DNA from: an uncultured bacterium
GTDB taxonomy: Bacteria; Bacillota_I; Bacilli_A; RFN20; CAG-826
NCBI GenBank assembly: GCA_949290395.1
Contig: CASERQ010000001.1
Span: 1-64,000, forward strand
Length of the DNA: 64,000 nt
Reading direction: 5' to 3'
In this document: piece by piece, positions 2,436 through 9,065 of the stretch
Layout: every line of letters starts with the position of its first letter
Position numbering within the stretch: the first letter of the stretch is position 1
Made by a program: the position numbers and the translations under genes
The notes under the pieces: model-generated
The model's database searches: none
Told to the model about the DNA's origin: nothing
What the model saw: only the letters and a program-made list of their open reading frames with translations

Positions 2436-4094
2436 TTATTTCTTTTTGAGATATTTAAGGGAGTCAAGACAGACAGCAGCCATAATAATGAGTCCCTTGA
2501 AGATGAATGTAATATTAGTATCAACGCCAATGTTAGCTAAACAATAAGTCATACCAGAGAAGATAATTGTACCAACAACAGCTCCGCTAATTTTACCAAT
2601 ACCACCAGAGAAAGAAATACCACCGACAACACAAGCCGCAATAGCATCAAGTTCGGTACCAAAACCTGTGTTAGGGTTATTGGAGCTACCTGCAGCAGCT
2701 GTGAAGAATCCACCAAATCCATAGAGGACACCAGCCATAATAAAGACAAACATTGTTGTCCAGAAGACTGAGATACCACTAACGGAAGCAGCTTCAGCGT
2801 TTCCACCTACTGCATACATATTTTTACCGAATTTTGTTTTGTTCCAAATGAACCAAACTATTGCGATTGCGATAATTGCAAAGATAATTAAGTTTACGTT
2901 ACTATCTCCTCTGATTGAGTTCTTAAGGTCACGGTTCATATCAAATCCAGGATAAGAACCAAACATCATCATGAATAAACCATAAGAGACAAGTTGAGTT
3001 GATAATGTAGTAATGAATGGATGCATTTTGAATTTTGCACTGAAGAAGCCAGCAATTGATGTAAAGATAACACAGACAAGAACACTAGCGAAGATACCAA
3101 GAGCAATTTTACCACCAACACTGAAACCAGTAGGGTCAATAGTAATTCCAAATAAAGCATCATTTACGATAAGGTCGCCACAGAAGATTGCGGCAAGTGT
3201 TGCACCTACACCAGTTAAACGACCAATGGATAAGTCGGTACCAGCTAAGAGAATTAATCCAGCAACACCCAAGGAATAGAATACCTTGTATGAAGATTGT
3301 CCTAAAATACCAAGTATGGAATTCCAAGTAATAAGGGAGCCTTCACTAACAATAATGAAGATAATGAAGATAATTAAGATAACGATATAAAGACCATTTT
3401 TAAGTAAGAAATTCTTTGTATCGAAATTATAAACATAACTTCTTCCTTTATATTCGAAGAACTCATCTATTGAATGATGGTTATTACGACATTTTGATTG
3501 GAAAGTATATTTTTCTAAGTAAGCATCGTATCTTCTATCTTTTGCTTTAGAAATTGTATCTACTTTCTTATTTTTTACATTTTCCTTTTTGGATTGGAAG
3601 ACAATTTTAGCATCCTTTAAATCACGTTTATAATCTTCAGGACTAAGTTCGCCTTTTCTAGCTTTAATATTTGCAACTTTTTCTTTGTATTCTGCAGTGA
3701 TTTCAGCTAAATCTTGGCGATATTCTTCTTTTGCTGCGAGCATTATTTGCTTTTCAGTTTCACAAACTTGAGCATAATATTCTTTCCATTCAGCAGCGTA
3801 TTCTTTAATAGCCTTTGTATAAATTTCTTTTACTTGTTCTTTATTTTCATTTTTGATTTTAACGGCTTCAGCTTTTAATGCTTTGTTCTTTTCAAATAAA
3901 GCTTGCTTGTCCTCTTTAGCCATTTGCTTATTTAAACGTGCATCTTTATTTTCGTCAGCCAAAGCTATGATTTTGTTTTCGCCGTCTTTTCTGAGTTTTT
4001 CTAATTCATCAAGATATTTATTGTAAACTTCATTTTTCTTTAATGGGCTTACAATTGATGAACTATCAACTCTTATAGTTGCGTTTTCGCTCAT
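2436..4094 (-). CDS. mglC: Galactose/methylgalactoside ABC permease with long helical N-terminal extension
   Basis: A 552-residue membrane protein. Residues from ~230 on match a normal MglC/RbsC-type permease (BPD_transp_2 family; about 330 residues), including GLILLAGTDLSIGRLTG and a C-terminal AACVVGGISFSGGIGKI segment. It would form the membrane channel with MglA. The first ~225 residues are extra: soluble, very rich in Lys, Glu and Ala, with heptad-like helical stretches (about 20-145 and 150-195), ending at the first membrane helix near residue 234. The whole is one frame with a good ribosome site (TAGGAG) before the ATG. The gene follows mglA by 14 bases. The permease call is secure; the role of the extension is unknown. 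Confidence 0.93.
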   Translation of the reverse strand: MSENATIRVDSSSIVSPLKKNEVYNKYLDELEKLRKDGENKIIALADENKDARLNKQMAKEDKQALFEKNKALKAEAVKIKNENKEQVKEIYTKAIKEYAAEWKEYYAQVCETEKQIMLAAKEEYRQDLAEITAEYKEKVANIKARKGELSPEDYKRDLKDAKIVFQSKKENVKNKKVDTISKAKDRRYDAYLEKYTFQSKCRNNHHSIDEFFEYKGRSYVYNFDTKNFLLKNGLYIVILIIFIIFIIVSEGSLITWNSILGILGQSSYKVFYSLGVAGLILLAGTDLSIGRLTGVGATLAAIFCGDLIVNDALFGITIDPTGFSVGGKIALGIFASVLVCVIFTSIAGFFSAKFKMHPFITTLSTQLVSYGLFMMMFGSYPGFDMNRDLKNSIRGDSNVNLIIFAIIAIAIVWFIWNKTKFGKNMYAVGGNAEAASVSGISVFWTTMFVFIMAGVLYGFGGFFTAAAGSSNNPNTGFGTELDAIAACVVGGISFSGGIGKISGAVVGTIIFSGMTYCLANIGVDTNITFIFKGLIIMAAVCLDSLKYLKKK

Positions 4095-4108
4095 ACTTTT
4101 CTCCTACC

Positions 4109-5605
4109 TTATAAATATTTTGCACAAAGATTTAACAATTCTTGCTGATTTGTTTCTTTTGTGTTTACAACACCTGCACAACGATAGTTGGACATAACAA
4201 CAATTCTATCTGTAACACCTAAAATTTCAGGCATTTCAGAAGAAACCATGATAATACTCTTACCTTCGCTAGCAAGTTTAATCATCAATTCATAGATTTG
4301 ATATTTGGCCATAATATCAATACCACGAGTTGGTTCATCCATTAAGAATACATCTGGATTTCTTTCTAGCCATTTACCAACAATGACCTTTTGTTGGTTA
4401 CCACCAGATAAAGAGGTGATATTGTCGTCGACGTTATTACATTTTGTATGCATTTGTTCGACTTCATAATTAGCGGCTTTTCTCATAAGAGTATTTGAAA
4501 GAATTCCAAATTTCTTATACTTATCTAAGTTTGTAATGCAGGTATTAAAGACAAGATCGCCTTTACCGAACATACCGTTTAGTTTTCTTTCTTCGGTAAC
4601 CATTGCGAAGTTGTAATCCATAGCTTGTTTTGTGCTTTCAAAACGAATTCTTGAACCTTTGTAAATTATTTCGCCTTCAGACATCTTTCTTGCACCAAAT
4701 AATGTTTCTAAGAGTTCACTTCTTCCGGCACCAACAAGGCCATAAATACCTAAAATTTCACCTTTACGTAGATCAAATGTTACATCTTTAAGGTGAGGAG
4801 CATATCTTGTAGATAATCCTTTTACACTTAAAATTACATCTCCAGGAATATTTGTCATCTTAGGGAATCTACTTTCAAGGCTTCTACCAACCATTGCATG
4901 AACGACTTCATCAAGGTTTGTGTCTTTAATAGCTTTATCTAAAGTAACTTCACCATCTCTTAAAACAGTAATATCATCACATAATTCAAAGATTTCATCC
5001 ATTTTATGAGAGATAAAGACAATTCCAATTCCAGTTTTGATTAAATCTTTTAAAATTTTAAATAATTGTTTAACTTCTCTTTCCGATAAAGAAGATGTTG
5101 GTTCGTCCAAAATAATAATTTTAGCATCGTAAGAAACGGCTTTTGCGATTTCAACCATTTGTCTTTGAGAAACCGACATTGTTCTCATTAAAGTTTTTGG
5201 ATCGACATTCATGTTTAATCTTGCGAAAAGTTTTTTACATCTTGAATTCATCTCTGCTTCATCAATGATTCCAAAACGTGTTCTATAACGCCCTAAAAAC
5301 ATGTTATCTGAAACTGTTCTTTCAAGACATTGATTGAGTTCTTGGTGAACCATAGCAACGCCATTTTCTAAAGCTTGTTTTGGTCCATGAAATTCAATCT
5401 TTTCACCATTAAGTTTAATAGTTCCAGAATCTCTTGAATAAATACCAAATAAGCACTTCATCATGGTTGACTTACCGGCACCGTTTTCACCCATAAGCCC
5501 CATAATAGTTCCAGGTCTAACATGTAAATGAATGTTTTTCAAAACTCTATTTTTTCCAAATGATTTTGACATGTCGTCAATTTCTAATAGATATTTTTCA
5601 CTCAT
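4109..5605 (-). CDS. mglA: Galactose/methylgalactoside ABC importer ATPase
   Basis: A 498-residue tandem ATPase of the sugar importer type. The first domain has Walker A GENGAGKST (39-47), the signature-like SVSQRQMVEIAKA (~145) and Walker B ILDEPTSSL. The second has the usual degenerate P-loop GLVGAGRSE and the signature LSGGNQQKV. Length and domain order are normal for MglA/RbsA. It lies between the binding protein and permease genes, with AAGGAAG before its ATG, and should power uptake of galactose-like sugars from the inner face of the membrane. RbsA-type sugars are an alternative, but the binding-protein residues favour galactose or glucose. Confidence 0.95.
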   Translation of the reverse strand: MSEKYLLEIDDMSKSFGKNRVLKNIHLHVRPGTIMGLMGENGAGKSTMMKCLFGIYSRDSGTIKLNGEKIEFHGPKQALENGVAMVHQELNQCLERTVSDNMFLGRYRTRFGIIDEAEMNSRCKKLFARLNMNVDPKTLMRTMSVSQRQMVEIAKAVSYDAKIIILDEPTSSLSEREVKQLFKILKDLIKTGIGIVFISHKMDEIFELCDDITVLRDGEVTLDKAIKDTNLDEVVHAMVGRSLESRFPKMTNIPGDVILSVKGLSTRYAPHLKDVTFDLRKGEILGIYGLVGAGRSELLETLFGARKMSEGEIIYKGSRIRFESTKQAMDYNFAMVTEERKLNGMFGKGDLVFNTCITNLDKYKKFGILSNTLMRKAANYEVEQMHTKCNNVDDNITSLSGGNQQKVIVGKWLERNPDVFLMDEPTRGIDIMAKYQIYELMIKLASEGKSIIMVSSEMPEILGVTDRIVVMSNYRCAGVVNTKETNQQELLNLCAKYL

Positions 5606-5675: not shown

Positions 5676-6983
5676 TTATTTAACTAATTCGTCAATGTGT
5701 GCTTCGAGATAGTCAACAATCATTTCACCTTGGAGTTGTCCACCTTGGTTAGCGTCAAATCCAACGTAGTAAATATTTGTAAATCTCTTATCTTTCATAA
5801 CATCAGCATCAACTGAACCATCAGCTTTTGTGCCTTGTCTGTTCCAGAAGATAACTGGGACATTTGTAGGAGCGGCTTCAGTAGCGCCTGTCTTTGTAGC
5901 GATAATATCAAGATATTCAGCAGCACTAGTTGTTTTAACCATGTTGATACAATATGCGTCAAAATCATTAGCTGCTGCTCTTAATTTATCTGTAACTTGT
6001 TTTTCATCGTTACCATCACCAGCAGTTGAGTCATCTAATGTAATATTCATCATTGGAGCATATGCACGGAATAATGGCTTCATGGAGCTGTTTAAGAATG
6101 TATCACTTGCACTATAGTAGTTTAAGAAGACTTTAATATTGTCGCCACCAGTATATGATTTAATTGGTTCTAATTGTTCTGTAACAGGAATGGCTTTTCC
6201 AGCTTCATCTACATAATCGTCAATATTAGAAGAATCAACTTTTGCGTTGTTAACTAAGAAAGCTTTTGTTTCTTCGTTGTATGCAAATTCTTTTTCAACA
6301 TAACCATAATTGTTGGCGTTAGCTTCACCAAAACCTTTTGTATAAACGTCTTTACCAGTCAATCCATCAGCAGCATTACGAGCGACCATTAAGATACCTG
6401 CAGCTTGAGCTGGAGCGTTTTGATTAATGGTACCCATAATAAGACCTTGTTTAATCTTGACTAATGTAGTTTCGTTAGAGTCATAACCGAAGATTGGCAT
6501 GCCATCTTCCCAGTTTGTAGCAGATGTTGCGCCTTCTGCCATACCATCATTATTAGAAACAAAGAAATTAATACCTTGTTCTTCAACAACTTCGCCATCA
6601 GCTGTTTGCCATTTGTCACTTGCGTGTTTGCTTAACCAAGCTTCAGTGGTTTGTGTAGCTGTTGCAGCATCCCATGTAGCACCACCGGTAGCTTTTTGTT
6701 CTGCGTGTTCAACTTCGTTAATTCTATATGTTTTTCCGTTGATTTCTAATTCACCTTGAACTGGAGTTTCCATGTTAGGGTTGGTCATCTTTGTACCTCT
6801 TGTTCCTAAAGCATCACGGATACCAGCTGTACGTGCAGCACTATCATTATGGTCGATTTGTCCGATTAAAAGAGCATAGTTAATATCAACGCCTTTTTCA
6901 TAATCTGGATCGCCACCGCCACAAGATGTAGCAACTATTGATAAAAGTGCTAAAGCAGTAAATGGAATTAATCTTTTTTTCAT
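5676..6983 (-). CDS. mglB: Circularly permuted galactose/glucose-binding lipoprotein
   Basis: A 435-residue exported lipoprotein: signal peptide with lipobox VATSC (Cys21). The mature part matches MglB/GGBP in two blocks in swapped order. Residues ~25-257 match the second half of E. coli MglB (HND at 45-47, Arg51, Trp104, NND at 144-146, FGYD ending at Asp168). Residues ~281-435 match the first half (SDTF, Asp294 and Phe296; VPVIFWN, Asn381; YYVGFD). All these correspond to known sugar contacts. The new N-terminus falls at the Ca2+-binding loop, and a linker of about 23 residues (258-280) joins the old ends. It should deliver galactose or glucose to MglAC. AGGAGG precedes the ATG. The family call is secure; the permutation is read from motif order. 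Confidence 0.93.
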   Translation of the reverse strand: MKKRLIPFTALALLSIVATSCGGGDPDYEKGVDINYALLIGQIDHNDSAARTAGIRDALGTRGTKMTNPNMETPVQGELEINGKTYRINEVEHAEQKATGGATWDAATATQTTEAWLSKHASDKWQTADGEVVEEQGINFFVSNNDGMAEGATSATNWEDGMPIFGYDSNETTLVKIKQGLIMGTINQNAPAQAAGILMVARNAADGLTGKDVYTKGFGEANANNYGYVEKEFAYNEETKAFLVNNAKVDSSNIDDYVDEAGKAIPVTEQLEPIKSYTGGDNIKVFLNYYSASDTFLNSSMKPLFRAYAPMMNITLDDSTAGDGNDEKQVTDKLRAAANDFDAYCINMVKTTSAAEYLDIIATKTGATEAAPTNVPVIFWNRQGTKADGSVDADVMKDKRFTNIYYVGFDANQGGQLQGEMIVDYLEAHIDELVK

Positions 6984-7227: not shown

Positions 7228-7256
7228 TTGTCTAAGAAAGACGCTTTCTCTATTAT
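7228..7256 (+). promoter_or_regulatory. Promoter of hpt
   Basis: TTGTCT (7228-7233) and TATTAT (7251-7256) are separated by 17 bases, placing transcription start shortly before the ribosome site at ~7270. Confidence 0.6.
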
Positions 7257-7281
7257 CTTTATATATTATAGGAGAGTTCTT

Positions 7282-7845
7282 ATGAGTCCAGAAATTATCT
7301 TAAACAAAGAAGAAATTGATGAAGTCATTACTGAAGTAGCAAACAAATTAAACAATTTTTATAAAGACAGCGATAGAATCCCTGTTTTAATTGGCGTATT
7401 AAAAGGTGCATTGCCTTTTATGATGGATTTAATCAAAAAACTTACCTTTGATCTTGAAATGGATTTTATACAAGTAACAAGTTATAGCGGCACTTCTTCA
7501 ACAGGCGTAATCCATCTTAAAAAAGATATTACAACTAATATCAAAGACAGAGATGTAATTATTGTTGAAGATATTGTTGATACAGGACTCACTTTAAATT
7601 ATTTAAAACAATATATTCAATTAAACTACTCTCCACGTGATATCAAAATCTGTTGTTTTGTAGATAAAAAACCACTTAGAAAAGTTCAACTTGAACCAGA
7701 CATTGTTGGCGTCACAATGACCCAAGCAAAATTCCTAGTTGGTTATGGATTTGACTATAACGAAATTGGAAGAAACATTGACTACGTTTTTGTTCCAACT
7801 AAAAAGCAGCTAGAAGAATGGGATAGAAAGCTTAAAAACAACTAA
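7282..7845 (+). CDS. hpt: Hypoxanthine phosphoribosyltransferase
   Basis: A 187-residue purine salvage enzyme that makes IMP/GMP from hypoxanthine or guanine and PRPP. The PRPP-binding motif IIVEDIVDTGLTL and the base-binding end (VGYGFDYNEIGRN) are present, and length is normal. The upstream in-frame ATG at 7228 falls inside the promoter. I chose 7282 because AGGAGAG lies directly before it and the protein then starts MSPEIILNKEEID. It shares a bidirectional terminator with the converging gal operon. Confidence 0.95.
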   Translation: MSPEIILNKEEIDEVITEVANKLNNFYKDSDRIPVLIGVLKGALPFMMDLIKKLTFDLEMDFIQVTSYSGTSSTGVIHLKKDITTNIKDRDVIIVEDIVDTGLTLNYLKQYIQLNYSPRDIKICCFVDKKPLRKVQLEPDIVGVTMTQAKFLVGYGFDYNEIGRNIDYVFVPTKKQLEEWDRKLKNN

Positions 7846-7901: not shown

Positions 7902-9065
7902 TTATAACTTTTTAAAGTTTACAGCGTGATTTGAAATACTAACTTTAAAGTACCTTTTTGGATCATAATGCTCTTTAAGATACTTATCAAATTCGTCTAC
8001 AAAATCATTTTTAATAAACGCAAGAACTGTTCCTTTGAATCCACCACCATGAATTCTTATAGCGCCATGCTCTTTAATAAATTCACTTACATCATCAATA
8101 ATATTTTGTGGAGAATCTTTATATTCACCTTCAACAAATGTATTTTTAATGTTGTTAGCGCTTGTATTTTGGCTTGCTCTAATTGCATCTAAAAATTCTT
8201 CTAAATTATTATCTTCAATAGCTTTTTTAGCGTGTCTTACATTTTCATTTTCGATAAAGAAATGCTTTGCCATTTTTTTAGTGCCTTCATCTATATTAAG
8301 AGCATCAATCTTATCAAAGATATTTTCGTCATTAACATCTCTTAAAAACTTCTTGTCTTCAAGTAAACCGGCAACTTTATACATATTTGCAGGAATTGCA
8401 GCATAAAGTGGAGTTAAATTAGCATGATCTCCGGCTGATTTAATAAGATAAAGAGTTAAAGGAAGGTTAAATGGTAAAGTTGTAATTTCTGGATTTGAAA
8501 TATTTTTAAAATCAATAAAGTTAAAACTATCAAAAGACGTTCCAACTTGATCAAGAAGTCCACTTGGTTTTCCAAAATAGTTATTTTCACTGAATTGACC
8601 GGTTTTAGCTATAACTAGTTCAGGAATTTTTCCATCATTATATAAATAAGAAACAATATAGCCAAAAAGTGATTCAATAGCTGCGCTAGAAGAAACACCA
8701 CTTCCATCAGGAATTTCGCTATTTATATATGCATCAAATCCACCAATTTTATAGCCTTGCTCTTTTAACTTAAAAAGAATTCCCTTAGCTAAAAGTAATG
8801 TTTTATTAGGTTCTTTTGGATTAAAAGCAATATCATCAACGTTAAATTCGAAGAAAGAATAACCTTTTGATTTGATTCTAACTTTTGTTGAGTTTGGATT
8901 AATATAAGCTCTAATTCTTAAAGAGCAATTAGCAACTAAACAAAGTCCATGATTGTGGTCTGTGTGGTTTCCACAGATTTCAAATCTACCACCTGTGTCA
9001 ATATAAAAATGTGGTTCTACTTTAAAAATTCTTAAAAATTCACTTTTCATTTCTTCAAGTACCAT
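7902..9065 (-). CDS. galK: Galactokinase
   Basis: A 387-residue GHMP kinase that makes galactose-1-phosphate. The galactokinase signature appears as GRFEICGNHTDHNHG (26-40). The usual GEHTDY Glu is Asn here, as I recall for clostridial-type galactokinases (GGNHTDH). The ATP loop GSGVSSSAA and the C-terminal HGGGFKGTVLAF are intact. It is last in galM-galT-galK, and its ATG overlaps the galT stop by one base (TAATG). The ribosome site GGAGG lies in the end of galT, so translation is coupled. Confidence 0.95.
   Translation of the reverse strand: MVLEEMKSEFLRIFKVEPHFYIDTGGRFEICGNHTDHNHGLCLVANCSLRIRAYINPNSTKVRIKSKGYSFFEFNVDDIAFNPKEPNKTLLLAKGILFKLKEQGYKIGGFDAYINSEIPDGSGVSSSAAIESLFGYIVSYLYNDGKIPELVIAKTGQFSENNYFGKPSGLLDQVGTSFDSFNFIDFKNISNPEITTLPFNLPLTLYLIKSAGDHANLTPLYAAIPANMYKVAGLLEDKKFLRDVNDENIFDKIDALNIDEGTKKMAKHFFIENENVRHAKKAIEDNNLEEFLDAIRASQNTSANNIKNTFVEGEYKDSPQNIIDDVSEFIKEHGAIRIHGGGFKGTVLAFIKNDFVDEFDKYLKEHYDPKRYFKVSISNHAVNFKKL

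Follow-up and report, generated by a model that had tools for sequence, protein, structure and literature searches.

The glucose importer Tp0684-0686 of Treponema pallidum offers a described counterpart to the locus reported here. Its MglB, Tp0684 (TpMglB-2, 'Cluster Bc'), has the segment order N2-C-N1, known from the crystal structure of Brautigam and colleagues (PMC4990184; PDB 5jx2). The portions of that paper that deal with the tp0686 permease place its homologues in similar treponemes and in Gram-positives, and mention no extension on the permease (PMC4990184). A permuted MglB is already known, then, from T. pallidum; for an extension on MglC, we found no description in the open-access literature, and an earlier account may exist elsewhere. 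Here, we examine the MglBAC operon in a 64,000-nucleotide stretch of DNA from an uncultured bacterium, the whole of which we call the window. The permease of this operon begins with a long N-terminal extension, hereafter the arm, that appears to be a standard, once-acquired feature of one branch of these importers.

Gene organization and translation of the arm

The three genes lie in the order mglB, mglA, mglC, all on the minus strand. The 435-aa MglB (5676-6983) has a lipoprotein-like start, is circularly permuted in the order C-N1-N2 and matches PDB 5jx2 with an E value of 1.9e-59. After 70 nt comes mglA (4109-5605), which encodes a 498-aa tandem ABC ATPase without an insert, and after a further 14 nt comes mglC (2436-4094), which from its ATG encodes a permease of 552 aa. 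Near the operon is a galactokinase gene (7902-9065, minus strand), with a plus-strand hypoxanthine phosphoribosyltransferase gene (7228-7845) in between. The core of the permease, residues 229-552 (2439-3410, minus strand), matches Pfam BPD_transp_2 (PF02653, E 2e-29) over residues 260-540, with 103 bits against a gathering cut-off of 26.8, and the NCBIfam MglC model spans residues 225-552. The MglC equivalog, NF007014, is the top match of its library but at 259 bits falls below its cut-off of 386, and given this score the protein is best termed MglC-like. Residues 1-222 match nothing in Pfam or NCBIfam. The arm, residues 1-228 (3411-4094, minus strand), consists of 17.5% K, 12.3% E and 9.6% A, with 50 K/R residues against 43 D/E. 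An earlier note on this DNA had proposed a one-frame fusion of a charged N-terminus of about 225 residues to a full permease, and a 228-residue Lys/Glu/Ala-rich part followed by a normal MglC core is indeed what we find, on a strand that the note had left unstated.

Such a reading would collapse if the arm were an annotation artefact and translation truly began inside the frame, for which the earlier note had pointed to the vicinity of residue 225. There is no candidate start codon there. After those at residues 1, 45, 58 and 118, the next start-type codon is at 275, so that an internal start could not yield a plain permease, and a good ribosome-binding site, AGGAG (4101-4105, minus strand), is positioned 6 nt (4095-4100) upstream of the first ATG. 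Additionally, six close genome pairs give the extension a dN/dS of 0.056-0.129, which exceeds that of the core by a factor of about two to three but is far below 1 and points to purifying selection. Together with homologous extensions in about 100 genomes, these features argue that the arm is translated. Nothing was found in favor of an internal start, which we reject as having a negligible probability.

Distribution and evolution of the arm

The extension is not peculiar to the window genome, and the search for it in other genomes that the earlier note had suggested returned homologues across several phyla. A long N-terminus (ORFs of 545-807 aa) is present on each of the 25 near-complete MglC genes that were taken from the window genome and its relatives; in one of them (L028) it is a different, non-homologous arm that the profile missed. 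This profile, built from 15 extensions, matches 82 of 87 further extensions at E<1e-28, and a reversed-sequence control gave nothing below E 6. The best matches among named genomes are in Treponema, Lachnospiraceae, Oscillospiraceae, Erysipelotrichaceae, Lactobacillaceae, Peptoniphilaceae and Lancefieldella. In 273 genomes, no strong match was found outside MglC that would represent the arm as a separate gene. Extension length ranges from about 213 to 482 residues across homologues. In 77 aligned proteins, L34, G38, A77 and F224 never vary, and R35, K53, N84, Y125, K174, K185, A191, L202, R203 and Y220 are nearly invariant; L34 and G38 bound an L-R-x-[DEN]-G motif (residues 34-38; 3981-3995, minus strand). 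The window arm has no Pfam match to a known family, other members show scattered weak coiled-coil matches, and no relative of solved structure was found by sequence.

Within the order to which the window genome belongs, every frame-complete MglC is at least 546 aa long, a count that includes a second, ~290-residue arm type without detected homology. One family contains both MglC forms: its 18 top-scoring core matches (>425 bits) lie in frames of 553-569 aa, and the remaining core matches (<=333 bits) in frames of about 330-383 aa, with two exceptions, a long fused frame and a match that is cut off. On a tree of MglC cores, which has long end branches and a root that is not fixed, the extension needs a single change; the 75 arm-bearing rows form one branch with support of 100/100. 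The window MglC belongs with them, having both a homologous LRxDG arm and a core inside the supported clade. On this tree, the arm was gained once and then kept, and it is standard for one branch of MglBAC importers across several phyla. The window permease is part of this widely shared galactose/glucose importer branch, whose binding proteins resemble Tp0684.

Long N-termini have also arisen independently on other MglC branches of the same class, where they are charged and of ~290 residues (L214-L217, L237) or hydrophobic (L206, 7991-9841), in every case beside a canonical MglB. No homology was found between the arms of L214-L217 and L237 and that of the window (hhalign probability 18%, 11 columns). 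The MglC arm of L058 is similar in length to this ~290-residue type. In a relative, a MalF-type permease (L246, 2164-4062) has a charged N-terminus of ~290 residues that gives a near-full-length but weak match to the MglC arm profile (E 1.7e-5). Furthermore, several ABC importer ATPases of the window genome contain long charged inserts in the ATPase domain, mostly between the Q-loop and the signature (L301, 4316-8164; L300, 1814-3259 and 12649-14547; L303, 1800-3518; L302, 3567-4565), and in one of these proteins, 1283 aa long, OppD and OppF are fused.

Could the arm be only charged helical padding of a kind that this lineage tends to attach to its ABC importers, with hardly any dedicated function? 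The K/E-rich inserts in several importer ATPases of the window genome and the other charged arms on MglC or MalF-like permeases of its relatives favor this explanation. However, the arm extends well beyond the lineage, to Treponema, Clostridia and Lactobacillales, some of its residues never vary and one fold is predicted for it; we regard padding as improbable.

Association with permuted MglB

In order to compare MglB forms, each protein was cut into N1, N2 and C segments and the segment order was read per operon, the canonical order being N1-N2-C. Arm-bearing operons comprise 69 with N2-C-N1, 19 with C-N1-N2, 4 with C-N2 in which N1 was undetected, 2 ended by contig edges and 4 with canonical MglB (L042, L043, L045, L052), so that permuted MglB outnumbers canonical by at least 92 to 4; because similarity to the window was part of how the loci were retrieved, these and the following operon counts are not rates. 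A further arm-bearing operon, L055, has a third circular permutation of MglB (1629-2837), cut inside the C lobe; over N2-C' this MglB shares 73% identity with a Tp0684-type relative. MglB is canonical in 14/14 operons with a short MglC and in 8/8 operons with other types of long N-terminus. L187 was listed as short, yet its reading frame encodes the arm ahead of the first ATG. In a separate, partly overlapping sample of one family, the arm accompanies permuted MglB in 10/10 operons and short MglC accompanies canonical MglB in 10/10. The co-occurrence that the earlier note had asked about is borne out.

This association is strong and is real as shared ancestry: arm and MglB form supply only one independent pair on the core tree and reflect one evolutionary event. 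With a single gain, no causal tie is demonstrated. In the canonical operons L042, L043 and L045 and their permuted sister L048, the same MglB halves (43-49% identity) occur in swapped order, so the order of MglB changes while the arm stays. In the pair L042 (6625-7791) and L048 (7751-8905), the oppositely ordered halves are 47-49% identical; this difference would be a recent permutation or a return. Elsewhere, in L327 (1860-4664), a 935-aa frame with canonical MglB segments reaches mglC and is apparently an MglB-MglA fusion.

The earlier note had gone further and suggested that the whole transporter has been rebuilt. The part of this that stands is that arm and permuted MglB together mark one rebuilt MglBAC branch. 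A mechanical tie that makes arm and permuted MglB one rebuilt machine draws on the operon counts and on the clean division within one family, but it faces the single independent gain, four operons that keep the arm with canonical MglB, the different permutation of L055, and the expectation that arm and MglB lie on opposite sides of the membrane, and we consider it very unlikely.

Predicted structure of the arm

AlphaFold2 was run on the whole MglC with 77 sequences (pLDDT 89.7, pTM 0.76) and on the extension alone with 56 sequences (pLDDT 95.4, pTM 0.84). Both runs give helices at residues 23-35, 39-54, 60-145 and 152-202, an elbow at about 209-222 and TM1 at 226-249. On the minus strand, the short helices of the base bundle (residues 17-20, 23-35 and 39-54) correspond to 3933-4046, the 86-residue helix (60-145) to 3660-3917, the 51-residue helix (152-202) to 3489-3641 and the elbow helix (209-222), which precedes TM1, to 3429-3470; Y220, Y222 and F224 are conserved. 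The arm is thus confidently predicted as a rigid helical fold. From the helix lengths and the turn, the two long helices probably pair as a hairpin, with 152-202 against 95-145. The covarying pairs 144-155, 136-162, 28-189 and 50-201, a few picks from a weak covariation signal, fit such a hairpin with the short helices packed on its second long helix. The turn is the length-variable spot, with insertions after residue 149 and an occupancy of 0.28 at 146-151, and the best conserved parts are the loop and elbow that adjoin TM1.

No hydrophobic stretch or signal peptide precedes TM1, and these features agree with the helical, soluble and presumably cytoplasmic extension that the earlier note had envisaged. 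Permeases of the RbsC type have their N-terminus inside the cell, and this topology, together with a K-rich arm without signal peptide, suggests by analogy that the arm is on the cytoplasmic side. For helical folds of the PDB, Foldseek gave no match to the arm at E<0.001, and VIA-align gave Z of at most 9.3, which is usual for long helices; structural comparison has in this way yielded no relative that hints at function. Hits to XPR1 SPX and F-BAR are not significant and belong with these generic long-helix matches.

Possible roles of the arm

A rigid arm fixed to TM1 and presumably cytoplasmic would suit docking or regulation, and we give an even chance to its being a rigid docking or regulatory domain joined to TM1 through the elbow. 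In addition to the single gain, with the arm kept in all 75 rows, this reading draws on the arm's conservation across phyla, some residues being invariant, on purifying selection, on a confident fold with covarying pairs and a variable hairpin turn, on the confinement of strong profile matches to MglC, and on a sequence before TM1 that is free of hydrophobic stretches and signal peptide. We envision that a domain of about 220 residues was added to the N-terminus of MglC at the root of the Tp0684-like MglBAC branch. It would fold as a set of short helices, which bear the LRxDG turn, followed by a long antiparallel hairpin, and would be joined to TM1 through the elbow helix. Two such arms per MglC dimer would hang rigidly in the cytoplasm, each with its base anchored on the elbow and on the transporter's cytoplasmic face, and the variable tip may contact a partner or steady the complex. 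That the arm is a scaffold or regulator near MglA, as the earlier note had it, is a guess.

The main rival is that the arm is chiefly structural, clamping MglC to MglA and aiding assembly or coupling without an outside partner. The arm is always fused to TM1 and the elbow, its best conserved parts adjoin TM1 and its predicted fold is rigid, all of which a clamp would explain. However, covariation of the arm with MglA or the core amounts to 0.15-0.22 of what is expected among the top 200-400 pairs, below background in a test of low power (effective 37 sequences), and MglA has no insert. At this depth docking on the transporter itself is unsupported, and we consider a clamp somewhat unlikely.

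Another alternative makes the arm a receiver for PTS-type control, that is, inducer exclusion by HPr-Ser-P or EIIA. Some arm carriers, the Lactobacillaceae for example, are known to possess a PTS. However, the window genome keeps its arm and, at 96% completeness, gave no match to HPr (PF00381) or EIIA-Glc (PF00358), with controls detected. A PTS receiver as the general function of the arm is rejected on this absence, unless the genes are in the missing few percent, and we regard it as extremely unlikely. Returning to a docking or regulatory domain, we propose more tentatively, and at somewhat less than an even chance, that the arm is a new dedicated domain of this kind by which spirochaetes, many gut Firmicutes and some Actinobacteria control or position the importer without the PTS.

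Comparison with known systems

Tp0684-type importers are widespread in gut bacteria and treponemes, and their permease bears a conserved, probably cytoplasmic domain without a named family. The arm is a ready target for asking whether the cell gates or positions its ABC sugar import from within, and the clade is a natural set in which three MglB permutations and the canonical order can be set against one permease type. Compared with E. coli-type MglC (PRK09478, PF02653), the window permease shares the mglB-mglA-mglC operon and a core (residues 225-552) that aligns over almost the full length, but that model has 336 positions and lacks the arm, and the window protein scores below the equivalog cut-off. 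The charged ~290-residue MglC arms share a K/E-rich and presumably helical N-terminus with the window arm, but accompany canonical MglB and lie on a separate branch of the core tree. Finally, the window MglB resembles that of T. pallidum in being both homologous to it and permuted, the two general traits of the TpMglB-2 type ('Cluster Bc'), whereas the specific order differs, N2-C-N1 in Tp0684 and C-N1-N2 in the window.
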